Source: Acidobacteriota bacterium (GTDB lineage Bacteria; Acidobacteriota; Terriglobia; Acidiferrales; UBA7541). From it: DNA of 64,000 nt. The notes below the pieces were generated by a model. The model was not told the DNA's origin and did no database searches. It was given only the letters and a program-made list of their open reading frames with translations. The translations under genes and the position numbers were made by a program. This document shows positions 46,175 through 59,644 of this stretch, piece after piece (positions within the stretch are counted from its first letter, which is position 1; the number at the start of each line of letters is the position of its first letter). Location of the stretch: positions 62,001-126,000 of the forward strand of contig QHYK01000039.1 in assembly GCA_003224085.1 (NCBI GenBank), in the 5' to 3' direction.

Positions 46175-47131
46175 TTACTTTCTGCCGCGCAGAGGTGGAT
46201 TCTGAGGGAACATCCGAAAGCGAAAGAGAGCCTCACCAAGATTTTGGATAAATGCTTCTGAATTATAAAGTTCTGCGCTGGTCTGCAGACTTTCCGGGGA
46301 AGCCGTCGGTTCAACCACATCCAACTGAAACTCGTGCGCAATGTCCTCAACGGTCTTCGGAAGAATCGGCCGTTCGTGCTCTACGTAGGCGTTAATCAGG
46401 GAATGCTCGCACAGCAGGTTCACTACTCGGGGAACTCCCAAAGAATAAAGGTGCACGGTGTCCATGGCCGCCTGGCTGAAAATCGGCTGGTTGCTCGGAC
46501 CAACTCCCGCGATTCTCAGTCTTTCGACAATATAGGCGTGCGTCTCTTCTTTCGTGAGGTGGTTGGTTTTGCAACGAATCATGATTCGCTGCCGGAACTG
46601 CCGGAGTTGCGGAAGGTTCAGTTTCTCCTCGAGCTCGGACTGACCTGAAACCACAATTTGCAGGAGTTTTTCCCCAGAAGTCTCCAGGTTGGTCAGTAAG
46701 CGGATTTCTTCCAGAACCGGGAAGGTGAGGTTTTGCGCTTCGTCAAGGATAAGCACGGCAGTTTCGCCGGCTCGGTATCGTTCCAAAAGCCAATGATTCA
46801 ATTTCATTAACTGCTGGCTCTTGGAACGCAACTCGCAGGGAATGTCAAATTCTGCCAGTACAAAATCAAAGAGTTGCGAAGAGTTCATCCGGGAATTGAA
46901 CAGAAACGCCGTTTTCGCTGCACGCTGGTTCAGCCAGTCCAAAACACGGTTTATGAGCGTAGTCTTTCCTGTCCCTACTTCTCCTGTAAGCGTAAGGATC
47001 CCTTTTCTTGTCTGAATGCCGTACATAAGGGCGGTCAAAGTCTCTTCAATCTGTTTCGTGAGAAACAGATAGCGGGGGTCCGGGCTAACGTTGAACGGGC
47101 TTTCTCTTAGTCCGAAGAATCTTTTATACAT
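46175..47131 (-). CDS. ExeA/GspA-like AAA ATPase of polysaccharide clusters
   Basis: A 318-residue AAA ATPase. MYKRFFGLRESPFNVSPDPR is the characteristic N-terminus of the ExeA-like family found in EPS/exosortase clusters. Walker A is LTGEVGTGKTTLINR, Walker B is AVLILDEAQNL, and QIVVSGQSELEEKLN with QRIMIRCKTNHLTKEET follow. PRVVNLLCEHSLINAY is the sensor region. It probably couples ATP hydrolysis to envelope or export assembly. No C-terminal peptidoglycan-binding domain is present. ATG at 47131 is chosen because it gives the family start. It is downstream of the export-protein gene on the same strand. Confidence 0.9.
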   Translation of the reverse strand: MYKRFFGLRESPFNVSPDPRYLFLTKQIEETLTALMYGIQTRKGILTLTGEVGTGKTTLINRVLDWLNQRAAKTAFLFNSRMNSSQLFDFVLAEFDIPCELRSKSQQLMKLNHWLLERYRAGETAVLILDEAQNLTFPVLEEIRLLTNLETSGEKLLQIVVSGQSELEEKLNLPQLRQFRQRIMIRCKTNHLTKEETHAYIVERLRIAGVGPSNQPIFSQAAMDTVHLYSLGVPRVVNLLCEHSLINAYVEHERPILPKTVEDIAHEFQLDVVEPTASPESLQTSAELYNSEAFIQNLGEALFRFRMFPQNPPLRGRK

Positions 47132-47278
47132 GGTCTCTTTTTCTGATCTAGCCGTTGCAAGCCTACAAAGTCTTCTCTTGTTGCTGTTCTTGGGCCCAGA
47201 GCGAGTGCGGACAAAGACCAAAGATCAGCGCCACCATGATTCCGCGGACCAGATGCCTCCAGGCTTTCATATTGATCC

Positions 47279-47918
47279 TCACGGCACAACAACCACGTCC
47301 TCGGGTTTTAGTTCAATGCGCTGCTCCGGATTCTTTCCAGCGATTGCTTCTTTGTAGTTGAATGGAATCTTTATCTGGCTTGCCGTTCTCGGTCCTCAGG
47401 GCGTAGATGCTCTTGATTCGCGCAAAGGCTGTAAATCCGCCGCTGCCTGAAAGGGCCTGCAACACGGTCATATCTGGAAGCAGCTGATAGGCGCCTGATT
47501 TGTTGACTTCCCCGCTTACATAGATCCGAAGGCTGTTTATTTCTGACACGCTCACGTTGACCTGGGGATTGGTCAAATACTTCTTTAATTCGTCGCGAAT
47601 GACCCCCGCCAACTCCATTGGAGTCAGCCCGGCGGCCTGAACATCATTCAAGAGCGGGAGGGTGATCTTCCCATCCGGGTGAACCGGAACCGTTCGCGTC
47701 AGTTGGTCTTCTCTCCAAACATCAAGTTTAATTACGTCCTGCGCTCCAATTTTATAGCCTGGGTCCGCTGTGCCCGTTTGTGCTGGACTCGCATTTGTCT
47801 GGCTTTTCAGTTCCCTTGATTCATCCTTCTTCTCTGGACCTGTGGATGTTTGCCCGTTTGCCGGGACACTCGCCGCAGCCAAAAACGCCGATAGGATAAT
47901 AGAACCGATATTTCGCAT
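47279..47918 (-). pseudogene. Wza-like polysaccharide export protein, 3' end frameshifted
   Basis: An outer-membrane polysaccharide export protein with a signal peptide (MRNIGSIILSAFLAAASVPA), a poly_export domain (YKIGAQDVIKLDVWREDQL, VHPDGKITLPLLNDVQAAG) and an SLBB unit (INSLRIYVSGEVNKSGAYQL). The open frame ends at 47313 with an unrelated tail. A +1 shift inside AAAGATT near 47366-47376 restores the family's C-terminus (IPFNYKEAIAGKNPEQ then LKPEDVVVVP) ending with TGA at 47279-47281. Removing one base joins the two exactly, so this is a single-base insertion or a sequencing error. It starts four bases after the stop of the upstream regulator gene. Confidence 0.85.
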
Positions 47919-47922
47919 TTCT

Positions 47923-48891
47923 TTATGTCACGCCCCGTTCCTTGTGCTTTTCTTCGAGACCGGTTTGTTTGATTTTGTAGAGCAAAGACTTGTAGCTGAT
48001 TTGAAGCTCCTTTGCCGCTCGCTTGCGGTTCCAGTGGGTTCGTTCAAGTGCCTTTGCGATCAGGTCGCGCTCTGCTCTCCGCGAGGCTGTTCGGGCAGCT
48101 ACCTTCAAAGAAGAACTCTGCGGCTCCTCTCGGCGGCCTGCTTCCTGTTTGGGAGTCGCGTCCAGCTCTTCGATCACTTTCCGGGAATCTCCAAGCAGCG
48201 CGATCCTTCTCGCGAGGTTTCCAAGCTCGCGCACGTTTCCCGGCCACTCATGCGTTATCAGGAATTGCTTTTCCTTTTCGCCGAGAACCACCGTCTCGCG
48301 CCCCAGTTCCGCAGAGTGTTTTGCAAGAAAATGCTCCATAAAAACGTGAATGTCTTCCTTTCTGTCCCTCAGAGGAGGGAGCCTAAGACAAACTCCGCTG
48401 ATTCGGAAATACAGCTCTTTGCGAAATCTCCCCGCTTCGATTTCTTTTTCCAAATTCTTTGAGGCCGAGGCAATAATCCGCAGGCTGTCGGAATTGTCCT
48501 CGTCTGCCTGACCGTCGGGCAAAATAGAAAGCAGTATCTTTTGGTTTTCCAAGTCCAACTCATCGATATCGTCCAGAAAGAGCGTTCCCGCTCTCCCATT
48601 GCAGCCCTCCCTGCGGTCTCTCAAGTCAGATTTCAAGGCAGCCAATTCTGCGAGCTCAACACCCCGGCAACTTACCCTTTTTAGAGGCATGTCGTGGCTC
48701 TTGGAGAGGCGATGAATCATCCGGCAGTAGACTTCCTTCCCGGTTCCGCTCTCCCCAATTAACAGCACCGGTACGTTTGTGCCGGCGATTCCCTCAACCA
48801 CGGAATTCAAGCTCTCGATAGCGGCCGATTGGCCCCGCACGAACCCACTATTTGAAGCAAAATGGACGGCTTCCCTAAGAAATAGGCTCAT
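47923..48891 (-). CDS. Sigma-54 activator-like AAA+ regulator lacking the GAFTGA loop
   Basis: A 322-residue protein with a bacterial enhancer-binding AAA+ domain and a Fis-type helix-turn-helix (NRKRAAKELQISYKSLLYKI), but no receiver domain. Walker A is LLIGESGTGKEVYCR, Walker B is GTLFLDDIDELD, and arginine-finger and sensor regions (FRKELYFRISGV, LPPLRDRKEDI) are present. Between the CRGVELAEL segment and Walker B the usual ESELFGxxxGAFTGA loop is missing, shortened by about 13 residues. GAFTGA contacts sigma-54, so it probably cannot open sigma-54 promoters itself. It may act like TyrR-type activators or as a modulator. ATG at 48891 is preferred to TTG at 48909. It abuts the export-protein gene. 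Confidence 0.88.
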   Translation of the reverse strand: MSLFLREAVHFASNSGFVRGQSAAIESLNSVVEGIAGTNVPVLLIGESGTGKEVYCRMIHRLSKSHDMPLKRVSCRGVELAELAALKSDLRDRREGCNGRAGTLFLDDIDELDLENQKILLSILPDGQADEDNSDSLRIIASASKNLEKEIEAGRFRKELYFRISGVCLRLPPLRDRKEDIHVFMEHFLAKHSAELGRETVVLGEKEKQFLITHEWPGNVRELGNLARRIALLGDSRKVIEELDATPKQEAGRREEPQSSSLKVAARTASRRAERDLIAKALERTHWNRKRAAKELQISYKSLLYKIKQTGLEEKHKERGVT

Positions 48892-48911
48892 AGTCCGATG
48901 AAGGTCCAAAA

Positions 48912-48927
48912 AGCAAATGCCTCGCCA
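48912..48927 (-). promoter_or_regulatory. Candidate sigma-54 promoter of the regulator-export operon
   Basis: The minus-strand sequence TGGCGAGGCATTTGCT matches the -24/-12 consensus closely: TGGC and TTGCT with GG and GC 10 bases apart. Predicted transcription start is near 48901, ten bases before the ATG at 48891. The short leader is a caveat. Confidence 0.55.
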
Positions 48928-49363
48928 CTAAGAAAAACCTCCCTGAGTTGCCAATTTCTTTGTAACCTATTGCAATATAAATGGGTTATAGGAATTCCGC
49001 AGCCTCGCAGGCCGGAGATACGGAAGGATCGAACCCTAATTTTGTGCCAAGAAGTTCCAAAACTTTCTCCTTTTTTGCTCTCCTTTCACCCCATGAACTT
49101 TGAGAAACTCGACAATGGCAACCGGAAGGCCTAGCTTAGCTATAGCCTTTAGCTAGATGGTTTCTTGGAACGAGGCGAGTCCCGGGCCGACGCGGCAACA
49201 CGCTCCTCTGCTCCTCTTAGAATTGCTTTGTGCCGTAGTTTGCAAACTTGATGGCGATTTCTCTTGCGCAGGTTACACTAGCGTAGCAACCCTCGCCGGC
49301 AACCGTAAGCTATGCGGTGGTTAAGGGGGTTAGTATGTTTTCTGCCTCTTCGCCGCCCGCCCT
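48928..49363. other. Intergenic region between tyrosine kinase and regulator genes
   Basis: 436 bp with no supportable gene, beginning just beyond the sigma-54-type box. It separates the Wzz-kinase pair from the regulator-export operon. No terminator hairpin with a T-run was evident. Confidence 0.5.
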
Positions 49364-50287
49364 TCAATCTCGGTCAGAGTGGTAATTCTGGTATTCCGCC
49401 CCATAAGAATCGCTTTTCTCGACTTGATTGAGTACTGCCCCAAGCAGATTCTTGTCTTGGAATTCGGAAGCTGTTCGCTCCACAATCTCTGCATGTGTCG
49501 AGCCTGCCCGGATTACAAACAATACCCCATCCACCAGGTCGGCTAGGATGCTTGCATCATGAACCGGCAGGGTTGGCGGGGCGTCCAGGATGATCCAATC
49601 GAATGCAGGCGAGACAACGTTGAGCAGGTGTTTCATCCTCTCGCTCAGCAGCAGCTCGCTCGGATTTGATACAAGATTTCCTCCAGGAATCAGGAAAAGG
49701 TTCTTGCTCATTCCTTTCTGAATTACCGCATACTCATCCGCATCCCCGCGTAGGTAATCGGACAGTCCTGGCCGGCCCTGCGTTCCAAACACTACGTGCA
49801 GTTGCGACGACCGCAAATCCGCGTCTATCAACAGAACTCGCAGTTCCGGTTGCTGCGCAATCGATTGGGCGAGATTGGATGCGACGAAGGTCTTTCCTTC
49901 ACTGGCAACACCGCTTGTGATAAGAACTCTCTTTAACTTCCGGGTCGTGGCGATTTTGTACAAGCGCAACCGCAGCGTGCGAAACCGTTCCGGCCCCTCC
50001 TCGCCTGGCTTCGAATTCAAAAACACGCTGTTGAGTGGATCAAGACGCCATTCTTTACGGGCACAACGTTTGTTGAGTTCTTCAAAGCTGAAACTCGCAA
50101 TTGTGCTGCTGTCGACGGCCTCAGTCCGAGTTGATGGCACAGGGGGAAGCAGGTCTATTCCTTGTGTGAGTGGGGACTCGGGTTCGGATCGGACCTCACC
50201 ATCTCCTTCACGGGGGTCGACATCAAACGTCAAGCGCGCGGCTCGTTCTTCAGCGGCCTTCTTTAAAGCTTCGTGGATGCGGCTCAT
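49364..50287 (-). CDS. CpsD/CapB-family protein tyrosine kinase
   Basis: A 307-residue bacterial tyrosine kinase. MSRIHEALKKAAEERAARL is the usual N-terminus in EPS clusters. After FRTLRLRLY come Walker A (SGVASEGKTFVASNLA), Walker A' (VLLIDADLRSSQLH) and Walker B (WIILDAPPTLPVHDA). The C-terminus has a small tyrosine cluster (DSYGAEYQNYHSDRD), the likely autophosphorylation sites. It controls chain length and export of polysaccharide with its membrane adaptor, the Wzz-like protein encoded 18 bases upstream. Confidence 0.93.
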   Translation of the reverse strand: MSRIHEALKKAAEERAARLTFDVDPREGDGEVRSEPESPLTQGIDLLPPVPSTRTEAVDSSTIASFSFEELNKRCARKEWRLDPLNSVFLNSKPGEEGPERFRTLRLRLYKIATTRKLKRVLITSGVASEGKTFVASNLAQSIAQQPELRVLLIDADLRSSQLHVVFGTQGRPGLSDYLRGDADEYAVIQKGMSKNLFLIPGGNLVSNPSELLLSERMKHLLNVVSPAFDWIILDAPPTLPVHDASILADLVDGVLFVIRAGSTHAEIVERTASEFQDKNLLGAVLNQVEKSDSYGAEYQNYHSDRD

Positions 50288-50305
50288 AGTTCCCTCAAGT
50301 ACTCC

Positions 50306-51673
50306 TCAGCGCAAATTCAATCCTTCAAAAATAGGCCGCTTAAGGAGCTTCGAGCTGCCAACTGCAGCTTCCAGAATAGGAACACTTACCAGAACGGGGA
50401 GTTTTAGATACGACTCAACTTCTCTCTCTGTGTGCAGAGTCTTGTCCATAGCCATCAGCACATATAGGATGATCAAAGCTAGGGCAGTTCCTCCTCCAAA
50501 CCCTCCGGCGACAAAATTAAACATCTTGGGGAACGATGGACTCCTAGGCAGGCTCGGTGGATCCAGCACACGAAATTGCTCACCTTCCTGCTGGTGAACC
50601 AAGTCGCTCGGCATCACCGAATTGTCCCGCTTTTTGAGCAATTGGTTGTAGAAGTCCAGGGCGCTCTGATAATTGCGTGTCAATTCTTTCACCTGCAAGT
50701 CCACCATCGGGCTAGCCTCGATGTGGCCCTCAAGCACTTTGATTTGTTCCTGGATCTTCCCCTGTCGCTTGAGTAAGTCCTGGTAGTTGAGCTCCTCTTG
50801 CTGTATTGTGGCTCGCAGCTGCTGCATCTGAGAGGGTTCGGCTGTTCTGCGGGCCGTCGAGGGCGCGCTCCGTTCCTCAAGGGTTTCGGGGTTCTGTCCT
50901 CCCTGGGACCCCTTCCAATTCGTTTCCTGCCTGCTTAGTAGAGTCTGGTTAAATGCCTTATCCTGCTGTGCACGGGTGAGCGCTTGTGTGGTCGCATCCA
51001 GCTCAGAATTGAGACTCCCTAACAAGCTGAGGTTGCTTTGGGTCTCTTCCGGCAGCAAACCAATGTATTGCCGCTTGAATTGGGCCAGTTTGGCATCTTG
51101 CTCATCCAGCTTCGCCTTTGCCTCATCCAATTGCTGACCGATAAGGGAAGTCCTCTGGCTGGCCTGCAGCTGCAAAGCCCGCTCATTTTGTTCCATGAAC
51201 ATCGAAGTTATTTCTGTGCAGATCTGTTGCGCCACTTGAGGGTTATTGAAAGTCACGTTCACTGAAAACCCGGGCAAATTTGGATACTGCGTGCCAGGCA
51301 TCGCCTCGAGGAGAGTGATCGTAACAGCCGCGCGCAGCCGATCAATTAAGTCCTCCCCGTGCACCTTGTTGCGGTCTTCGGCGTAAAGGTTGAATTTTTC
51401 GATGACCGGCTGAAGCCTGGAACGGCTCACAATCTGCTCCTTCATCGAGGCTAGCCTTTGGGTTAAGTCCTCTGTCACCACTGATTTTACGTAATCCTCC
51501 ACTGCGGGCCGAGCTACGAGAACCAGTGTTTGCGAGGTGTATTTCTTGGGAAGTCGCATTGCGACCAGGACACTGACTATCCCAAGCCCCGGGGCGCAGG
51601 CAGCGAGGACCCACCAATGTTTGCGCAAGACCCGCTTAATGTCAGCCATACTGAATTCGCCATTCCGAACCAT
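50306..51673 (-). CDS. Wzz/GumC-like polysaccharide chain-length protein
   Basis: A 455-residue membrane protein with one transmembrane helix near each end (HWWVLAACAPGLGIVSVLVA near residue 16; FNFVAGGFGGGTALALIILY near residue 385). A periplasmic region of long coiled-coil helices lies between (QLDEAKAKLDEQDAKLAQFK, IQEQIKVLEGHIEAS). This is the co-polymerase layout without a fused kinase. ATG at 51673 is preceded by AGAGGAGTGAGC, which decides the start over longer frames. It forms an operon with the kinase gene. A sigma-54-type box lies 36 bases upstream. Confidence 0.9.
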   Translation of the reverse strand: MVRNGEFSMADIKRVLRKHWWVLAACAPGLGIVSVLVAMRLPKKYTSQTLVLVARPAVEDYVKSVVTEDLTQRLASMKEQIVSRSRLQPVIEKFNLYAEDRNKVHGEDLIDRLRAAVTITLLEAMPGTQYPNLPGFSVNVTFNNPQVAQQICTEITSMFMEQNERALQLQASQRTSLIGQQLDEAKAKLDEQDAKLAQFKRQYIGLLPEETQSNLSLLGSLNSELDATTQALTRAQQDKAFNQTLLSRQETNWKGSQGGQNPETLEERSAPSTARRTAEPSQMQQLRATIQQEELNYQDLLKRQGKIQEQIKVLEGHIEASPMVDLQVKELTRNYQSALDFYNQLLKKRDNSVMPSDLVHQQEGEQFRVLDPPSLPRSPSFPKMFNFVAGGFGGGTALALIILYVLMAMDKTLHTEREVESYLKLPVLVSVPILEAAVGSSKLLKRPIFEGLNLR

Positions 51674-51708
51674 GCTCACTCCTCTCGCAGCAGGGGAAAC
51701 CTCGAAGC

Positions 51709-51724
51709 AGCACGCCAATGGCCA
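51709..51724 (-). promoter_or_regulatory. Candidate sigma-54 promoter of the Wzz-kinase operon
   Basis: Minus-strand TGGCCATTGGCGTGCT has TGGC at -24 and GTGCT at -12 with correct 10-base spacing. Predicted start near 51698 leaves a 25-base leader containing AGGAG, an ideal layout for the gene starting at 51673. Confidence 0.5.
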
Positions 51725-52306
51725 TGGAATTGTAGTTAGAGAAGCCTAGAAAGCCTCTAAGTAATTGTATTTAAACGGCCTACGACATGTCCGGCCCTGT
51801 AGATGTAAATGCTACGTCAAAACTCATGCGAGTCAATCGGAAAAGTGGAACTTTTGTAGCCACAATATCCCCAAAATTGTCATCCACTCTACTTTACTCT
51901 AGCGCGGCGGTGTCCTTTAGCCAAGACCAGGCAGCATAAGCCACTTCGCCGATGTCATGTTCTTTGTTTTCTTATGCTTGAAGTGCTTTCGGGCTGGGCT
52001 TTTCCCCGGCTGTCCGGGGAGCCAAAATTGCACCAGATTCCGAAACGCCTTCCTGTTTGGTTTTGCCTTTATCTGCGTGGTCCTGTCCGCGTGTTTCCGC
52101 GACCATAAGGCGAGAAAGCAAAGGTTCATGGCGGTGGAAGACGCAGGAAAAATTCGCTGAGGCCCTGCTCACCTGCGGTCGCGCTCTCCCGATTGACCAA
52201 AGGTCAGCGGAGATTCATTGCAAGGTCGCCAAGTGCCAACTCAGGTCCCTCTACGCAGCCGAACCCGCTGGCCTCTCCTTGCCTGATGGCGATGGGGTTT
52301 CCCTTC
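51725..52306. other. Intergenic region upstream of the Wzz-kinase operon
   Basis: 582 bp without a supportable gene. The segment around 52060-52140 (ATCTGCGTGGTCCTGTCCGC and following) resembles the short dispersed intergenic repeats common in these genomes. Confidence 0.45.
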
Positions 52307-53314
52307 TTAAGTAGTCAGGCCGGCTTCGCGAATCTTGTAAATGAGCAGCCTGTAACTGATTTTTAGCTGCTGTGCCGCCTTCCTGCGATTCCAGCGATTG
52401 GCGCGCAGCGCCGCAAGAATAATATTCTTCTCGCTTGCCCGAATCGCCTCTTTACAAAGACTCTTCAAGGGGACTACTCCATCCCCTCTGGAAACAGGCG
52501 GGAGTGTTGGAGTGACAGGCCTCGGGCCCTCCAAGACCGACGCCTCGGCACCGATGAGGACATGGCGGGCGATGCCGTTCGAAAGTTCGCGGATATTCCC
52601 CGGCCAGTCCATACACTGCATATAGTGGATTGTCTCTCTGGTGAGAGGCTCCGCCCGCGTCTGGAACTGCTGTTGGCAGCGCGCCAGAAAATACTCCGCC
52701 ATCGCAGGAATGTCTTCCCGGCGGTCGCGGAGCGCCGGCAGCTTCAGGCAGACCACATTAATGCGATAATATAAATCCCCGCGAAACTTTCCTTTCGCAA
52801 TCTCCTCTTGTAGATCTTTGTCAGTGGTGCAAATCAGCCGGGTTTCCACCGACCTCTCCAATTCATCGCCGATGCGCGAAAAACGGCCATCCTGGAGAAA
52901 CTGGAGGAGCTTGCTTTGCGAGCCCCAATCGAGATCAGCGATTCCGTCCAGAAACAGCGTGCCGTTGTGCGCAAGCTCCACTCTTCCGGGTTTTGTGGAA
53001 TGGGCCCCGGTAAAAGCTCCTCTTTCGAAACCAAAGAGCTCGCTTTCCAGCAGGGTCCCTGGAATCGCCGCGCAATTCACTTTAACGAACTGGCCGCTCG
53101 CCACTCCCGAGTGCTTGTGAATCCACCAGGCAAGAACCTCTTTGCCGCTCCCCTTTGGGCCGCACAGCAACACCGGAATGTTGGTTCCGGCCACTTTCCT
53201 AGCCCGCTTGCGCACCTCTTTCATGGCTTCCGAACGGCCAAACAGGATCTCTTCCGGCGGCAGGAGATTGGCCAGTTCGGAGCATGCAGTCTTTTTTTTC
53301 TTCTCGGCAGACAT
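52307..53314 (-). CDS. Sigma-54 activator-like regulator with altered Walker B
   Basis: A 335-residue protein with an AAA+ sigma-54 interaction domain and a Fis-type helix-turn-helix (NRRKAAQQLKISYRLLIYKI) but no receiver. Walker A is LCGPKGSGKEVLAWW, and the sigma-54 contact loop ELFGFERGAFTGAHS is intact. Walker B reads GTLFLDGIADLD, so the Glu that normally follows the Asp is Gly (codon GGA, one base from GAA). That Glu is needed for ATP hydrolysis in related proteins, so activity is doubtful. ATG at 53314 (MSAEKKKKTACSEL) is chosen over a longer frame. It lies upstream of the Wzz-kinase operon on the same strand. Confidence 0.88.
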   Translation of the reverse strand: MSAEKKKKTACSELANLLPPEEILFGRSEAMKEVRKRARKVAGTNIPVLLCGPKGSGKEVLAWWIHKHSGVASGQFVKVNCAAIPGTLLESELFGFERGAFTGAHSTKPGRVELAHNGTLFLDGIADLDWGSQSKLLQFLQDGRFSRIGDELERSVETRLICTTDKDLQEEIAKGKFRGDLYYRINVVCLKLPALRDRREDIPAMAEYFLARCQQQFQTRAEPLTRETIHYMQCMDWPGNIRELSNGIARHVLIGAEASVLEGPRPVTPTLPPVSRGDGVVPLKSLCKEAIRASEKNIILAALRANRWNRRKAAQQLKISYRLLIYKIREAGLTT

Positions 53315-53576
53315 ATTCCCGCTGATAGTTCGGGCGGGAAACAGAAAGCACATCGCAGTCCCATCAGGGAATCCTGATAAGACGGGGAACGTAGAGACGA
53401 ACAAATCAGCAACTACTTCATTTACAATGGCTTAGCAGAGACCAACCCGGGCCGGTTGTAGTACCCCGAGGTAAAAAGGCACTGTTTTCGAATATCACGA
53501 ATAGTAAAAACTTCTCCCACCTTCGAGACCATTTTTCTCTCTAGATGGGGGTGGTCTTAAGAAGGTTCGCGCCGTC

Positions 53577-54011
53577 TTATCTCTGCGGGAAAATGAAGGA
53601 TTCCAAGAGGTCCGCCCGGGCCTTCTCGTCCGAAGCCACCACCCGCAAAATGTCGCTCACGGAGAGCATCCCGCGGAACCCCTGCCGCTCATCAAGAACA
53701 ATGAGGTGAAAAATGGTGTTTTGATCCATCAACCTCAGGCAGTCTTCCAGTCTGATGTCCGAAGTTACTGTGACGAGATCACGCGTCATGATGTCGGAGG
53801 CTTTCATCCAGGCAGGGCACTTATTTTCTGCGGCTACCTTATCGGAGACATCGCTGTGCGAGATGACTCCGACAACTTTTCCGTTTGCATCCACCACGCC
53901 AACTGCACGCACCTGCTTCTCTCGCAGATATTGCGCGGCTTGATGAACGCTCGTTTCTTCGGTGATGGAGAAGACTTCTCTGCGGGACCCTATCAAGTCG
54001 GCAACCTTCAT
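53577..54011 (-). CDS. CBS-domain pair protein
   Basis: A 144-residue protein made of two CBS motifs. The first spans ~1-65 (MKVADLIGSRREVFSITEET, RAVGVVDANGKVVGVISHSD) and the second ~72-135 (ASDIMTRDLVTVTSDIRLED, FHLIVLDERQGFRGMLSVSD). Such pairs bind adenosine nucleotides and regulate partners. It has no fused effector. Start ATG follows GGGAGGGTCC. It sits between the two sigma-54-type regulator genes, so an energy-sensing role in polysaccharide control is possible but unproven. Confidence 0.9.
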   Translation of the reverse strand: MKVADLIGSRREVFSITEETSVHQAAQYLREKQVRAVGVVDANGKVVGVISHSDVSDKVAAENKCPAWMKASDIMTRDLVTVTSDIRLEDCLRLMDQNTIFHLIVLDERQGFRGMLSVSDILRVVASDEKARADLLESFIFPQR

Positions 54012-54172
54012 TGGACCCTCCCGAAGTTCATGGGCCGGATACTAGGCCTATTTCTTTCTGGATGCAAGATGCGTCCAAACCAAACCAGGCTCTCGAACAA
54101 CCCTTTTGGGAGCCGGGAAGGACCTCGTTCACGGGTTTCGAAGGTATTCTGTAGCGGGCCCAAAGGTTTACG

Positions 54173-54529
54173 TCACGGGCGCGCTTCGGCGCGGACAATG
54201 TCGTACCGCTCGATCACGGCGGCCACGCCCATGCGCGTATTGCCGTCCTCGATTCGAGGTTCCACACGGAGGACCTTACCAAAGGCATGTACCAGCACTT
54301 CTGTCCCGCCGGTTACTTCCGTCGGCAGCGTCAGGATTAGGTCAAGCTGAGAGTCGGCTTGAGGATCTTGATCCATTACGAAATACAGCCCGCGCGTTGA
54401 GATGTCGCGGGTCTTGCCCTTCAGGGAATCTATGGCTTTCTCTTTGGGAACGCGAACAAGAACCGGTAAAGTCAGATCGTACCGTCGCGTCGTGCGGCGT
54501 TCCGTGGTGCCCCCCATCCTTCGATTCAC
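54173..54529 (-). CDS. PilZ-domain protein
   Basis: A 118-residue single PilZ domain. ERRTTRRYDLTLPVLV carries the c-di-GMP-binding RxxxR-type arginines and TRDISTRGLYFVM the D/N-x-S-x-x-G motif, so binding of c-di-GMP is likely. GTG start at 54529, or ATG at 54517. Together with the GGDEF and second PilZ genes nearby it points to c-di-GMP control of polysaccharide output. Confidence 0.88.
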   Translation of the reverse strand: MNRRMGGTTERRTTRRYDLTLPVLVRVPKEKAIDSLKGKTRDISTRGLYFVMDQDPQADSQLDLILTLPTEVTGGTEVLVHAFGKVLRVEPRIEDGNTRMGVAAVIERYDIVRAEARP

Positions 54530-54670
54530 GCCCCGCGTCCGGTTTGTCCCGGCCGCATTCCCTTCTTTGAATTGAGCCTGAATATCGGATTCCGATTACA
54601 ACCTTGCTTGCCCCGGGAAGCAATTTAGACCTGTTAATTCAAATATGAATCAAACTTTGGCGCGCAGCAG

Positions 54671-54686
54671 GGCAACTCAAATGCCC
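54671..54686 (-). promoter_or_regulatory. Candidate sigma-54 promoter upstream of pilZ
   Basis: Minus-strand GGGCATTTGAGTTGCC has GG and GC 10 bases apart and TTGC at -12. It lies between the response regulator gene and the PilZ gene, about 140 bases before the latter. Confidence 0.35.
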
Positions 54687-54743
54687 GTACGAGTATACTT
54701 GCTATTGCCCGATCGAGCTAATTCCGTCTCCGCGAAAACCCGT

Positions 54744-56201
54744 TTATCCGTTTCTGGTTCCCACGGTAGAACCTTCTTCCGTCCCTGCAGTTGTCGCCGT
54801 TTTCCTTGTCCGCGGCGTATCCAAGTTGAACTGCCTCATCTTATACAGCAGGGCTTTATAACTGATGCCCAGCATCTTGGCCGCGTCCTTGCGGCACCAC
54901 CTCGTTTTTTCCAGCGCGTCGGAGATCGCTTCCATCTCTGCCTCGTCTTTCAAGCCGCGCACCAGCGCCTTCAGCCCTTGGTCTTTTGGCTGCGCCGCTT
55001 CTTCGCGCGGCGAAGTTCGCTGCCGCGAGGAAGACATCTCCACCAACTCGCGCAAGCTGCCTTCGTCATCCTCGAGAATGACGTAGCGCTTTACGAAGTT
55101 CTCTAGCTCGCGCAAGTTTCCGGGCCAGGGATAGTTCACTGCCGCATCCAGCAGGTGCTTGGAAGGAGGCTGTCCGGGCTTGCCATACTTCTCGCTGTAT
55201 TTTTGCAGGAAATGTTGAAACAGCAGCGGAATCTCGGTCGTGCGTTCCCGCAGCGGCGGCACGTTGATGGACAAAACGTTCAAACGGTAATACAAATCCT
55301 CGCGGAAACGTCCGGACTTCATGGCTTCCTGCACGTTCACATTGGTGGCCGCGAGCACGCGCACATCCGTTTCCACCAGGTGCCGCCCGCCCAATCGCGA
55401 GTACTGGTGATCTTGCAAGACGTGCAGCAGCTTGGCCTGCAAATGCGTGCTCATCTCTGCGATTTCGTCGAGGAAAATTGTGCCTTTGTTCGCCAGTTCG
55501 AACTTGCCCGGCTTGCTCCGCACCGCGCCGGTAAAAGCCCCTTGCTCGAATCCAAAAAGTTCCGACTCCAGCAGTTCCCCCGGCAATGCCGCGCAATTCA
55601 CTTTCACAAACGGCTGGTTGCGCCGTCTCGAGCGCAGATGGATCATCCGCGCTACAACTTCCTTGCCCACGCCGCTTTCCCCGCAGATAAACACCGGGAC
55701 GTCCACCGGCGCGATTTGCAGTAATTGCTGCCGGATTCGCACCATCTGTGGACTCGCAGCCAAAAAGCTCAAATCTTCGGTGACCTGGTCGCAATAATCC
55801 CGCAGCGCCTGGTTCTCCGTCGCCAACTGTTTCTTCTGGCGCGACTTCAACATCGCCGCATCCAGCTCTGTCTTTTCAAACGGCTTGGTTAGATAATCGT
55901 GCGCTCCGATCCGAATGGCCTCCACCACCGTCCCCACTTCATTCGAACAGGACAGCATGATCACATTCAGAGAGCGGTCGAGCCCCATCAGCTCTTTTAG
56001 CGTGTCAATGCCGTTCAGCTCCGGCATCAAAACGTCCAAGATGATGAAGTCCGGACGTTCGCCTTTCTTCACCTTGTTTAAAGCCTCTTTGCCCGAGCTG
56101 ACCGTCTCCACGTCGAACCCATCCACCTCCAAGAGGGTCTGCAAGTACTTTCGAATGCTCGGCTCGTCATCCACCACCAGGATTTTTTCTTTCTCCGCCA
56201 T
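54744..56201 (-). CDS. Sigma-54-dependent response regulator (NtrC family)
   Basis: A 485-residue NtrC-type regulator. Receiver at 1-120: ILVVDDEPSIRKYL with the acidic pair, FIILDVLMPELNG with the phosphoacceptor Asp, YLTKPFEKTEL with the conserved Lys. AAA+ domain at ~150-390: ICGESGVGKEVVARM, ELFGFEQGAFTGAV, GTIFLDEIAEMS, LPPLRERTTEIPLLF-like sensor region. C-terminal Fis helix-turn-helix (CRKDAAKMLGISYKALLYKM). All catalytic elements are present, so it can drive the sigma-54 promoters of this island. It follows the kinase gene by 35 bases. The layout resembles the PrsK/PrsR pairs of EPS clusters. Confidence 0.94.
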   Translation of the reverse strand: MAEKEKILVVDDEPSIRKYLQTLLEVDGFDVETVSSGKEALNKVKKGERPDFIILDVLMPELNGIDTLKELMGLDRSLNVIMLSCSNEVGTVVEAIRIGAHDYLTKPFEKTELDAAMLKSRQKKQLATENQALRDYCDQVTEDLSFLAASPQMVRIRQQLLQIAPVDVPVFICGESGVGKEVVARMIHLRSRRRNQPFVKVNCAALPGELLESELFGFEQGAFTGAVRSKPGKFELANKGTIFLDEIAEMSTHLQAKLLHVLQDHQYSRLGGRHLVETDVRVLAATNVNVQEAMKSGRFREDLYYRLNVLSINVPPLRERTTEIPLLFQHFLQKYSEKYGKPGQPPSKHLLDAAVNYPWPGNLRELENFVKRYVILEDDEGSLRELVEMSSSRQRTSPREEAAQPKDQGLKALVRGLKDEAEMEAISDALEKTRWCRKDAAKMLGISYKALLYKMRQFNLDTPRTRKTATTAGTEEGSTVGTRNG

Positions 56202-56236
56202 TGGCTCTTCCCCTTTTCCCGGAAATTTCTTCGACC

Positions 56237-57466
56237 TCAGCCTTGATCCATCGGCAACAGGAACGTGAATCGGCTCCCCGCGGTGGGATCACTTTCCACC
56301 CAGATCTTGCCGCGGTGCGCTTGAATAAGCCGCTTTGCAATCGCCAAACCCAGGCCCATCCCCGAAGTGTTCCTGTCGACTCGCACAAAATCTTCAAAGA
56401 TTTCTTGATGATGTTCGGCGGGAATGCCCGCGCCGGAGTCCCTCACGCTTACTTCCACGCTGTTGGGCCGCGGCAGGCGGAATCTTCGCCGTTCTTCCAG
56501 GGGTGCCATGGCAGCCACCCGGCGTTCCCAAAAATGAGGAGCCGCTCGCAGCACTACCGTGCCGCCGCTCGGCGTGTGCTTCAGCGCATTGTCGAGCAAG
56601 TTGGCCGCAACCTGCTGAACTTTCTGATAGTCGAATCGGAACGTCGGAATGGACGGGTCGATGTTCGCTTCCAATCGCACTCCTTTGCGCTGAAATGCTT
56701 CCGTCCACCGCTTGGAAAGTTCATCCAGGCAATCTCGCAGGTCATTCTCCCGAAGCTGCAAAACCAGTTTGCCGCTTTCCAGCGCCGAATAATTCAGGAA
56801 CATCGAAACCAGGCGCACCAGCCGTTCACAACTCTCTTTGGATTCTTCCAGAATGTCTCGCTGCTTGTCCGTCAGCCGCCCCAGCGAACCCGCGAGCAAC
56901 AAATCGTAATACCCTTTGATTACCGCTAGCGGCGTTTTCAATTCGTGCGCGGCAGAAGCAAGAAAAACCGTCTTCTGACGGTTCACCTCTTGCAATTTCA
57001 AATAGGCCGCAAGAAGGTTTCTGTAAGTGATTTCTCTTTCCTGAAGCAGCTCTTGCACCGTGAGCCGTGTTGCTGAATCGGCTCCGGCGTGCGCTTCTGC
57101 TTTGCCGTCGATTTCCACCACCAGCCAGTCGGATTCGGGCATCCATTGAAGCCGCGCACTTGTTTTTTTCTCCGCGCGCCCGATTTGCACTTTGATTTCG
57201 CGCTCGCCCTTCAAAACTTGCCCGAAAATGCTGGCCGAATCCAGCTTCAGCAGATCCACAAAAAGATTGGGCTCATCCGCTTCCTTGAACCCATAGGATT
57301 CCAGGCATTGGCGCGCCCGCGCATTCACCAAAATCAGGCTTCCGCCGCGATCGGCCACGAGTAACGATTTTTCAACGGTATCCAGCAGTTGCCTAACGGC
57401 TACTAAAGGAAGGGATCGGCGACTGCGGTCTTCCGCCACGGGCGGCATGGCTGTCCTTCCGGTCAT
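56237..57466 (-). CDS. Cytoplasmic PAS sensor histidine kinase
   Basis: A 409-residue histidine kinase with no transmembrane segment. An N-terminal PAS-like domain spans ~20-130 (LLDTVEKSLLVADRGGSLIL). Then come the HisKA helix with the phospho-His (FLASAAHELKTPLAVIKGYY, near residue 180) and the HATPase domain (QQVAANLLDNALKHTPSGG as N-box, VRDSGAGIPAEHHQEIFEDF as G1, SGMGLGLAIAKRLI as G2). It should phosphorylate the response regulator encoded immediately downstream in response to a soluble or redox/ligand signal. It is divergent from the second PilZ gene. Confidence 0.93.
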   Translation of the reverse strand: MTGRTAMPPVAEDRSRRSLPLVAVRQLLDTVEKSLLVADRGGSLILVNARARQCLESYGFKEADEPNLFVDLLKLDSASIFGQVLKGEREIKVQIGRAEKKTSARLQWMPESDWLVVEIDGKAEAHAGADSATRLTVQELLQEREITYRNLLAAYLKLQEVNRQKTVFLASAAHELKTPLAVIKGYYDLLLAGSLGRLTDKQRDILEESKESCERLVRLVSMFLNYSALESGKLVLQLRENDLRDCLDELSKRWTEAFQRKGVRLEANIDPSIPTFRFDYQKVQQVAANLLDNALKHTPSGGTVVLRAAPHFWERRVAAMAPLEERRRFRLPRPNSVEVSVRDSGAGIPAEHHQEIFEDFVRVDRNTSGMGLGLAIAKRLIQAHRGKIWVESDPTAGSRFTFLLPMDQG

Positions 57467-57695
57467 GTCCGGATTCTGTCCTTTTCAGGGAGGTGGTAAA
57501 TATTTTCCCTTGCCGGATGCTCATCCTTACAGAGTGTCTCTCGTTAAGTCAATGGTAAAAGCGTTCCATTTGCACTTTTGCGGAAATTTATTGGATTTCC
57601 AGGCCTCGGGCGGTAACGAAATCTTTTGCTCTCTGGCGGACGCCTGCGAACCTGTTCCCATTAAAAGAGTTATCGCGAGACTGGACAAGTTCATC

Positions 57696-57711
57696 TGGCA
57701 CCTAAGATGCT
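57696..57711 (+). promoter_or_regulatory. Sigma-54 promoter of the second pilZ gene
   Basis: TGGCACCTAAGATGCT carries the full TGGCAC -24 element and ATGCT at -12 with the required 10-base spacing between GG and GC. Predicted start near 57722 gives a 31-base leader with GGGGGA before the ATG at 57753. This is the best sigma-54 box in the window. Confidence 0.65.
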
Positions 57712-57752
57712 CACGTCTCGTACTATATCCGTTGTACTGTCCGGGGGATTCC

Positions 57753-58106
57753 ATGCTGCATCGCGTGATCGAGGAAAACAAAGCCTTGGAAGTTCGCCAG
57801 ACGAGGCGCTCGTCCCGTATTCGTCTGCAGATTCCGGTTTTTGTTCGCGGTACAGACACCTCTGGTTCTGCGTTTATCGAGCTCACTAAGACCCTTAATA
57901 TCAGCGCTTTCGGAGCCTGTATTGCCTCCCAGCATATGCTTCGATCCAATCAGACCGTTCACCTCACGATACCCGCCCCATCCCCGGCCAATCCCGGCCT
58001 CGTCCCCAGTGAAACCCCGCCGATTATTGCTCGTGTCTTGCGTCAGAACATGTTGGGGGAGACGCGCCTTTTCGGCCTGGAGTTCCTCTGCCCTCTCGAC
58101 GATTAG
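57753..58106 (+). CDS. PilZ-domain protein
   Basis: A 117-residue PilZ domain. RQTRRSSRIRLQIPVFVRG has the arginine motif and TLNISAFGACI the N-x-S-x-x-G motif, so c-di-GMP binding is expected. RVLRQNMLGETRLFGLEF closes the barrel. ATG at 57753 is chosen because of the preceding GGGGGATTCC and the PilZ boundaries; the longer upstream frame crosses the sigma-54 promoter. It is transcribed divergently from the histidine kinase. Confidence 0.85.
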   Translation: MLHRVIEENKALEVRQTRRSSRIRLQIPVFVRGTDTSGSAFIELTKTLNISAFGACIASQHMLRSNQTVHLTIPAPSPANPGLVPSETPPIIARVLRQNMLGETRLFGLEFLCPLDD

Positions 58107-58180
58107 TAGAAACCTCCGGTCTCTTCGTGCGGGCAGTTTTGTTACACAACGCCCAACATCATCCTCGTGAATTTGAGTTT

Positions 58181-58196
58181 TGGCTCGTTTTTCGCC
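58181..58196 (+). promoter_or_regulatory. Candidate sigma-54 box upstream of the GGDEF gene (distal)
   Basis: TGGCTCGTTTTTCGCC matches TGGCACG at six of seven positions, with GC 10 bases after GG, but has TCGC at -12. It lies 165 bases before the GGDEF start codon. Confidence 0.4.
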
Positions 58197-58267
58197 TGAT
58201 TTTGTATTAGGATGCTCGGCTTCTAAACGGTTCAGCTTGTTTGGAGGCTTCCAAGGCCCAGTACGAA

Positions 58268-58283
58268 TGGTCTCTTGGTTGCT
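58268..58283 (+). promoter_or_regulatory. Candidate sigma-54 box upstream of the GGDEF gene (proximal)
   Basis: TGGTCTCTTGGTTGCT has a perfect TTGCT -12 element and correct spacing, with a partial -24 element. Predicted start near 58294, 67 bases before the GGDEF gene. Confidence 0.45.
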
Positions 58284-58360
58284 CCACTATGGCTGTACAA
58301 CAATTCAAACGCTTGCCCCATACCCCGCGGGGATAGGCAGAGGTTAGGTTTATTCCGGAC

Positions 58361-59644
58361 ATGCCCAGCCCCGGCGCCCTTGCGCCCCCGCGTCTGCCTG
58401 CGGAGGATACGTATCTCGAGTTGCTTGCGGATACGCTCGAGAGCCTTGATCTCTCCGCACGCGGACAATTTCTTCAACGTTTCCTCCGGGCAATCTGTCA
58501 TGTTGATTTGCGCGAATCCGAGTGTGTTCAAGTTTGGGACGAAATGCTCGCTCACCGCCGCGTCTTAGTGGATCAAGCCGGCCGGCAGATTGCTCTCAAA
58601 GCTGCTCTCCTGGATGTGCTCGCGTCTCACGGCTTCCTTCGTGTGCCCATCATCATGGAATACGAGGATCTTAAGAAGCTCGAATTGAATGCCGTTACCG
58701 ATCCTCTGACCGGCCTCTATAATCGCAGGCTTTTTGGAGAGTCCTTCGAGAAGGAATTGAACCGCGCTCGGCGCTACACGCAACCGCTCAGCTTGGTCAT
58801 CCTGGATCTTCACCGCTTCAAGGAAGTGAATGACAAGCATGGCCATCCCCGCGGTGATGAAGTCTTGCGCGTAACCGCCGCAACGCTCAAGAAGGCATTG
58901 CGCACATCCGACTATGCTTTTCGAATCGGAGGCGACGAGTTTGCTTTGCTGCTTCCCCAGACCGATTCGCAGCAAGCTCTTGCTCTCAGCCGCCGCGTGG
59001 AAGCCGTCTTTTCAGAGATGCTCCGTCCCCTCCAGCTGGAAGTTGCCGTGAGCATGGACCATGGCATTGCTATCTTCCCGGAAGATGCCGAGCAGGCGGA
59101 TCAGCTTATTCGCATTGCTGACGAGCGCCTTTACCGCCAGAAGCACGACAACCACAAAAAAGCAGTCAACGGAGCCAACCGCATCGAACCTCGGCCGCCC
59201 ATCGAAACGTCTGCAGCTCCTACGGTTTCCGCCGAGGCGCCTGCTCCACTCCCTCCGCCGATTTCGGTTGAGACCAAACGTCCGCCGGATAAAGAAAACC
59301 ATCGTGATGGGCGGGCGTCCCTTGAGTCGGTTCCAGCCGCTGCGCAAGTCTTGCCCGCGCCGCCGCGCATATTTGCGGTCCAGCGCAAAGCCGATCGCGT
59401 CTCGATGGCCGGCACAAACGCTTATGCAGTTCTCGGCGAGCAGGGAACGAAACGCGCCCGCGTCCTCGACCTGGGTTTCGGCGGCGTGGCCATTGAGTTC
59501 GATGCGCAAGAAGAAGTTCCGGAGAATCTGTTTGCTGTTCTGCACGTGCCGATTCTTCCTCCCGTCCGCGTGAACCTGAAACCTGTCTGGAAGCAGCAAA
59601 CCGCAGCCGGCGGCACTCGCGTCGGCTGCTCCTTCGTTTCCTGA
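58361..59644 (+). CDS. Diguanylate cyclase with C-terminal PilZ-like domain
   Basis: A 427-residue protein. The N-terminal ~100 residues are helical with no known domain. A GGDEF domain follows (~105-265): DPLTGLYNRRLFGESF, SLVILDLHRFKEVNDKHGHP, and the active site YAFRIGGDEFALLLP. The RTSD five residues before GGDEF is an intact RxxD inhibitory site. A Pro-rich linker (~280-335) leads to a PilZ-like barrel (RVLDLGFGGVAIEF, VWKQQTAAGGTRVGCSFVS) with a weak arginine motif. It should make c-di-GMP and probably sense it, feeding the two PilZ proteins nearby. No membrane segment. Confidence 0.9.
   Translation: MPSPGALAPPRLPAEDTYLELLADTLESLDLSARGQFLQRFLRAICHVDLRESECVQVWDEMLAHRRVLVDQAGRQIALKAALLDVLASHGFLRVPIIMEYEDLKKLELNAVTDPLTGLYNRRLFGESFEKELNRARRYTQPLSLVILDLHRFKEVNDKHGHPRGDEVLRVTAATLKKALRTSDYAFRIGGDEFALLLPQTDSQQALALSRRVEAVFSEMLRPLQLEVAVSMDHGIAIFPEDAEQADQLIRIADERLYRQKHDNHKKAVNGANRIEPRPPIETSAAPTVSAEAPAPLPPPISVETKRPPDKENHRDGRASLESVPAAAQVLPAPPRIFAVQRKADRVSMAGTNAYAVLGEQGTKRARVLDLGFGGVAIEFDAQEEVPENLFAVLHVPILPPVRVNLKPVWKQQTAAGGTRVGCSFVS

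Follow-up and report, generated by a model that had tools for sequence, protein, structure and literature searches.

A family of GAFTGA-less enhancer-binding proteins encoded behind predicted sigma-54 promoters, with a representative at an XrtA/PEP-CTERM-like polysaccharide locus

EBPd, a protein of 322 aa encoded in the window (the whole 64-kb stretch of DNA that was analysed), is best explained as a sigma-54 activator paralogue that is functional, under selection and unable to remodel sigma-54 polymerase. It belongs to the superfamily of bacterial enhancer-binding proteins (bEBPs), since the Sigma54_activat-type AAA+ core, the AAA lid, the Fis-type HTH and the fold are all present (Pfam domains above cut-off: Sigma54_activ_2/Sigma54_activat, AAA_lid_14 and HTH_8). 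A sensor domain is absent from its N-terminus.

Loop loss and conservation of EBPd

The EBPd gene extends from an ATG at 48891 to a stop codon at 47923-47925 on the minus strand, as given in an earlier note on this DNA, and the ATG of the downstream gene follows at 47918; an ATG occurs at the matching alignment place in 15 of 25 orthologues (the window's own counted). The Walker A (GESGTGKE), Walker B (FLDDI) and arginine-finger (GRFRKELYFR) regions described in that note are kept, and its main observation, the loss of the ESELFG-GAFTGA loop, was borne out: the conserved Cys and the Walker B Asp are 32 residues apart, without anything resembling GAFTGA between them, and the two GAFTGA-bearing neighbours have 42 residues there. 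In an alignment with the two neighbouring EBPs, the ESELFG/GAFTGA stretch shows a net loss of 10 residues, the remainder being unrelated sequence. The predicted model (mean pLDDT 83.6) shows an ordinary AAA+ domain, in which a single helix (80-95) occupies the place of the L1 insertion. Its best structural match is NtrC1 (1ny5_B; Z 23.0, rmsd 2.3, 222 residues), and VpsR reaches Z 21.0, with many sigma-54 activators equally high. EBPd scores 117.1 bits against the TyrR family (NF008085) and 166.8 bits against the PrsR family (TIGR02915), i.e., below the curated cut-offs of 576 and 502.6, respectively.

A family search in 61 genomes (the window's own counted) retrieved 26 EBPd-family loci in 25 genomes; the first match below these was six orders of magnitude weaker and was an EBP2 bearing GAFTGA. 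Five further EBPd loci came from a phylum draw of 297 genomes. The orthologue alignment proposed in the earlier note (30 members, one per genome, window's own included) is devoid of the L1 loop with GAFTGA in 30/30 members, and so is a second copy in genome G032; with an intact GAFTGA in none of the 30, the deletion is not a local one. The members have 24-33 residues between Cys and Walker B Asp, compared with 42 in two canonical references and exactly 42 in 106/110 non-family EBPs used as control (110 of 128 with a literal WPGN, the 18 others being dropped). A single branch with an SH-aLRT of 100 separates all 30 from the remaining sequences in a quick tree calculated without bootstrap and with the loop columns excluded. 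In the contigs of named genomes, no loop-less EBP was present among the at least 80 loci listed, for which the best identity was 36 %. From its sequence, EBPd should be unable to touch sigma-54 in the usual manner, and loss of this contact is supported by the deletion being conserved.

Values of dN/dS ranged from 0.08 to 0.26 in the 7 resolvable of 9 pairs; these are rough, with dS above 1.6 in six of the seven and saturation in the two others. The gene is accordingly not decaying, since the loop loss is common to a one-branch family with such ratios. Each orthologue has an open frame of at least 301 codons (the one with 301 is clipped by a contig end), and the stops flagged in three matches lie beyond the C-terminal end of the protein.

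Other motifs of the AAA+ core are retained: Walker A reads GE(S/T)G(T/S)GK in 27/30 members, with GK kept in the remaining three, the arginine-finger motifs FR and (Y/F)(Y/F)R are each found in 29/30, and WPGN of the sensor II region in 30/30. The HTH is likewise retained across the family. The position after the Walker B Asp, site of the catalytic Glu, is Asp in EBPd of the window. Glu is kept there in 9/30 orthologues and missing in 21/30 (14 have Gly), the substitutes being mostly Gly, Ala, Asn, Val or His; the non-family control has D-E in 107/110. Judging from these motifs, EBPd can probably bind ATP and assemble, and is probably a poor ATPase.

Genes neighbouring EBPd

The locus in the window is an XrtA/PEP-CTERM-like polysaccharide gene set (Table 1), with the minus-strand order histidine kinase (HK), RR-EBP, CBS protein, EBP2, Wzz, tyrosine autokinase, about 470 bp, EBPd, wza and XrtA-type ATPase. 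An export gene immediately downstream of EBPd, as reported in the earlier note, is indeed present (Poly_export/SLBB), but its reading frame is disrupted in the assembly (frameshift region 47172-47374, minus strand). The beta-barrel-like gene located between wza and the ATPase gene in locus L058 is a short weak remnant here. A wza match directly follows EBPd on the same strand in 23/25 contexts and in 5/5 contexts of the phylum draw, in addition to the window. L061 and L062 yielded no wza match and yet keep EBPd, which argues for a role of EBPd beyond wza expression.

By its domains and motifs, RR-EBP is the locus's one complete activator (receiver, GAFTGA, D-E). While both of the other two activators mentioned in the earlier note carry GAFTGA, EBP2 itself does not have the catalytic Glu. 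EBP2 of six close relatives (L060, L061, L062, L194, L197, L201) shares GPKG(S/T)GKE and DG, together with GAFTGA or GAFSGA; from these motifs, EBP2 looks like a second hydrolysis-poor EBP of the locus, by a different route.

The two-CBS-domain protein has matches at the corresponding place in L060, L061 and L062. A PilZ gene and a GGDEF diguanylate cyclase gene (57447-59644, plus strand) are divergent from the HK/RR-EBP operon, and since they adjoin it, cyclic-di-GMP may feed into the locus. In L203/L228 of genome G005, where EBPd was not found, the EBP upstream of wza has a full-length loop with ELFEGT replacing GAFTGA, possibly an independent loss of sigma-54 contact at the matching place as far as the sequence can tell. 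The genome of the window has a second XrtA-type locus (L227; autokinase, ATPase, Wzz, Wza), which shows no dyad of the kind described below and whose contig, G000:C22, is free of PF00158 matches.

Table 1 Genes and predicted regulatory sites at the EBPd locus of the window
Feature	Position	Strand	Remarks
XrtA/PEP-CTERM-associated ATPase	46175..47221	minus	TIGR03015-like, under its curated cut-off
wza-type polysaccharide export gene (Poly_export/SLBB)	47313..47918	minus	4 bp after EBPd; frameshifted near 3' end in assembly
EBPd, GAFTGA-less bEBP, 322 aa	47923..48891	minus	AAA+ and Fis-type HTH only
Predicted sigma-54 -24/-12 element TGGCGAGGCATTTGCT	48912..48927	minus	directly 5' of EBPd
Upstream dyad GGAGAAAGTTTTGGAACTTCTTGG, putative enhancer site	49047..49070	minus	starts 143 bp 5' of -24/-12 element
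Tyrosine autokinase, polysaccharide system	49364..50287	minus	
Wzz-type chain-length determinant (ORF)	50306..51718	minus	sigma-54-like element overlaps annotated 5' end
Sigma-54-like element before Wzz TGGCCATTGGCGTGCT	51709..51724	minus	score 14.7, weak alone
Dyad before Wzz	51843..51861	minus	starts 137 bp 5' of Wzz sigma-54-like element; score 12.7
EBP2	52307..53404	minus	GAFTGA kept; Walker A GPKGSGKE; Walker B DG, catalytic Glu lost
Weak sigma-54-like element before EBP2 GGGACTGCGATGTGCT	53347..53362	minus	score 14.4
Weak dyad-like site before EBP2	53499..53517	minus	starts 155 bp 5' of EBP2 sigma-54-like element
Small two-CBS-domain protein	53577-54011	minus	between EBP2 and RR-EBP
RR-EBP	54744..56201	minus	receiver, canonical AAA+ with GAFTGA and D-E, HTH
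Histidine kinase	56237..57466	minus	tandem with RR-EBP
Dyad GGGAAAATATTTACCACCT	57491..57509	minus	immediately before HK/RR-EBP operon

Predicted promoter of EBPd

The EBPd operon seems to be transcribed from a sigma-54 promoter predicted directly upstream of it, and rpoN is present in the genome of the window. An element of the type TGG-N8-(T/C/G)TGC on the coding strand is the top-scoring site in 25/25 loci (at most 175 nt upstream of the EBPd match; the 26th locus, L059, with 5 bp, was dropped); since the elements were chosen as best scores, their shared letters are partly there by construction. With a sigma-54 weight matrix written from recall, the 25 loci have a median score of 19.1, and 1000 pieces drawn at random from them one of 13.3 (p = 9e-14, too small a value because the loci are related), and 20/25 loci exceed the 90th and 13/25 the 95th percentile of this control, 5/25 not being above the 90th. 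Lone sigma-54-like matches are not significant (shuffled windows yield 544-607 at a score of at least 13), so that the weight lies only on the position-restricted score comparison and the fixed spacing to a dyad.

This dyad (GGnnAAAnnTTTnCCACTT, consensus GGATAAAAATTTGCCACTTTGTGG) starts 138-145 bp 5' of the -24/-12 element in 22/25 loci, or 23 if a weak one is counted. It totals 668 bits vs 243-261 in six shuffles, a control in which relatedness remains and which had fewer iterations and seeds than the real set. When the upstream regions are aligned on the sigma-54 element, the information content exceeds 0.6 only at this element, at -144, -137 and -135 and in one column at -44. Using a PWM that omits L055, L056 and L057 (dyads weak or differently placed), the EBPd dyad of the window scores 27.7, the runner-up across the 64 kb 9.4. 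Among the five loci of the phylum draw, dyads were read by eye in four (L188, L189, L190, L192), and the sigma-54 score is 17.3-21.6 in L188-L191 and 12.8 in L192.

A combined exact pattern of half-dyad and sigma-54 element gave 14 matches in 36 whole genomes of the genus, and EBPd promoters account for 12 of these (reversed pattern: 5 matches); the exact pattern is found in 11/21 EBPd-bearing genomes of the genus and misses the window's own site. The 24-base pattern of the window dyad, with 2 mismatches allowed, has 5 matches in the window's genome (control 2), is exact at the window site only and did not recover the Wzz and HK sites there. XrtA-type loci without EBPd showed no dyad in 11/12 cases (one locus from the window's genome), with top scores of 1.1-10.6, only six of the 12 having a wza match and several contigs being short. 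In the twelfth, L226, a dyad scoring 16.2 lies within an ORF of 224 aa, and its surroundings contain no EBP match.

Related dyads and a common recognition helix

Dyads resembling GGGAAAAnnTTTnCCAC precede the HK gene in 17/19 loci, starting 39-73 nt before the extrapolated HK start; some of their scores (12.6-13.3) are within the maximum (13.3) of 150 background pieces. In the window, the best sigma-54 score in the 200 nt after this dyad is only 10.3. The exact HK-dyad pattern has 22 matches in the 36 whole genomes (control 3), of which 17 lie about 1.8 kb from an RR-EBP AAA+ match on the same contig, the other five being unplaceable relative to RR-EBP. The HK dyad also occurs in L204, L207, L210 and L211, four genomes without a detected EBPd (two of the assemblies are 77 and 84 % complete). 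The reader of the dyad in these genomes is therefore probably a protein other than EBPd, most simply RR-EBP or EBP2.

A dyad located 135-141 bp before a sigma-54-like element is found at Wzz in the window, L058, L060, L061 and L062 (5/13 loci, all of the window's subclade); it was not seen in the other eight scored Wzz loci, in which Wzz is placed elsewhere in the gene order. Since the sigma-54-like element overlaps the annotated 5' end of Wzz in the window, the true start is probably further in.

Exactly three of the 20 EBPs of the window's genome, namely EBPd, EBP2 and RR-EBP, have the recognition helix ISY(K/R)xL(L/I)YK; the other 17 are without it. The HTH of EBPd is closest to those of EBP2 and RR-EBP (alignment scores 111 and 109; next 81). 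The EBPd, Wzz and HK dyads of this genome differ at several positions, so a single protein need not bind all of them. From sequence, RR-EBP or EBP2 could be the sole binders of the EBPd dyad, to the exclusion of EBPd, or the dyad could be a private site of EBPd.

Possible function of EBPd

Tentatively, and with a confidence somewhat short of even, EBPd may be regarded as a negative-feedback brake: a sigma-54-dependent operon would yield a dud activator that blocks the activator's site or poisons its ring. The linked histidine kinase would activate RR-EBP, which, perhaps together with EBP2, would bind the EBPd dyad and switch on the EBPd-wza operon. Having a similar recognition helix, EBPd could then occupy the same kind of dyad as an ATP-stabilised, hydrolysis-poor oligomer, or alternatively enter the ring of the activator without a sigma-54 loop. 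In either way it might dampen its own operon, possibly the HK/RR and Wzz operons too. EBPd would signal through its dose, which the sigma-54 promoter sets, and thereby brake exopolysaccharide export; control by dose fits a protein without an input domain. That EBPd acts as a brake rather than a boost we infer from logic alone. In the window's subclade EBP2 has likewise lost the catalytic Glu, and RR-EBP may therefore be the sole working engine of a mixed machine at this locus. One may speculate, a little more cautiously still, that the entire clade is a dedicated natural brake that still binds DNA and assembles rings, has given up sigma-54 contact and, for the most part, hydrolysis, and restrains its own sigma-54 promoter via enhancer competition or ring poisoning.

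Among the three roles offered in the earlier note, repressor and anti-activator forming mixed hexamers are favoured by the predicted sigma-54 promoter with its dyad, the similar dyad of the HK/RR-EBP operon and the common recognition helix, while for a sigma-70 activator no sigma-70 target is indicated. A sigma-70-type regulator like TyrR, R. capsulatus NtrC or VpsR, i.e., a DNA-bound oligomer with ATP binding and little or no hydrolysis that activates or represses housekeeping promoters of polysaccharide genes, is nevertheless the more serious of the other readings, although an unlikely one. EBPd has the same GAFTGA loss as these proteins, and known GAFTGA-less bEBPs behave in this way, VpsR at polysaccharide genes, according to the accessible portions of PMC3162934 and PMC10274813. 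VpsR is also among the structural matches of EBPd (Z 21.0, many sigma-54 activators being equal), diguanylate cyclase and PilZ genes are close by, and the HK/RR dyad without a good sigma-54 element after it may mean that a sigma-70-type operator exists in the locus. However, the most conserved site adjoining EBPd keeps a constant distance to a sigma-54 element, the HK dyad is retained in genomes without detected EBPd, and a sigma-70 consensus scan of 47000-58400, which may not suit this phylum, gave 3 sites vs a shuffle mean of 5.2.

It appears rather improbable that EBPd is instead a constructive partner, forming mixed rings with RR-EBP or EBP2 and aiding assembly or DNA sensing, with the loop loss tolerated since the partners bring loops. 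Such a role would agree with the nearly invariant arginine-finger motifs (each in 29/30), which act on the neighbour's ATP, with an EBP2 that kept GAFTGA or GAFSGA and lost the catalytic Glu in seven genomes (the window's and the six relatives named above), and with the presence of two half-defective proteins beside one complete RR-EBP. Yet EBP2 is not expected to supply hydrolysis in those seven genomes, so that RR-EBP would need to be the engine, and at least five genomes with RR-EBP and EBP2 (L204, L207, L208, L210, L211; some assemblies incomplete) gave no EBPd match, from which EBPd is not generally needed. Hardly any credence is left for a decaying activator gene with a local deletion, a reading to which the frameshifted downstream wza of the window's genome might lend itself: the loop is absent in every aligned orthologue, dN/dS is low, the frames are open and the promoter is conserved. 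A pseudogene was rejected in view of the family-wide loss and purifying selection.

Comparison with known systems

TyrR, DhaR, HupR, VpsR, YplP and NtrC of Rhodobacter and Caulobacter carry N-terminal sensor or receiver domains. EBPd differs from them in having neither, and forms a clade in the window's phylum separate from the known GAFTGA-less bEBPs. The latter are a recognised kind: TyrR, DhaR, HupR, VpsR and YplP are named in the available text of PMC3162934, and Caulobacter NtrC is described as GAFTGA-less in that of PMC10274813, where R. capsulatus NtrC and VpsR are cited as further cases. As far as these sources reach, all of them share with EBPd the descent from bEBPs, an L1 loop/GAFTGA lost or damaged and a sigma-54 contact that is not expected, and VpsR resembles EBPd further in serving a polysaccharide locus (PMC3162934, PMC10274813). 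A literature search, with subscription journals mostly outside it, revealed no GAFTGA-less bEBP behind a sigma-54 promoter with a dyad of a type it could itself recognise, and no paper was retrieved for Acidobacteria in combination with GAFTGA.

Individual GAFTGA-less bEBPs are thus already known, mostly as sigma-70 regulators; here the loss has become fixed throughout a clade, and the genes of that clade lie behind predicted sigma-54 promoters with a defined dyad. This combination makes enhancer competition vs ring poisoning directly testable, using a single promoter together with the canonical activator and the two defective paralogues. The locus may also represent a candidate regulon for exopolysaccharide export in a seemingly acidobacterial group, a placement derived from paralogues that cluster with named Acidobacteria in the tree. 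HrpR/HrpS are mixed activators, with more than one bEBP per operon, and both keep GAFTGA and activate. EBPd is without the loop; the likeness lies in several bEBPs acting on one operon.

A close parallel at the level of the locus may be PrsK-PrsR, for which the accessible part of PMC1569441 reports that PEP-CTERM genes preceded by an upstream motif and a -24/-12 motif are controlled by sigma-54 and PrsR; likewise, the PEP-CTERM gene pepA is RpoN-dependent according to the portion available of PMC9850573. Both PrsK-PrsR and the window locus combine a HK/RR-EBP pair at a PEP-CTERM/XrtA-type polysaccharide locus with upstream and -24/-12 motifs (PMC1569441, in the part available). RR-EBP scores 374.3 bits against TIGR02915, below the cut-off of 502.6. 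In contrast to the proteobacterial system, whose sites mainly precede PEP-CTERM genes in the text at hand, those of the window precede regulator, export and Wzz genes, and relative to PrsK-PrsR as described there the window locus adds a GAFTGA-less paralogue.
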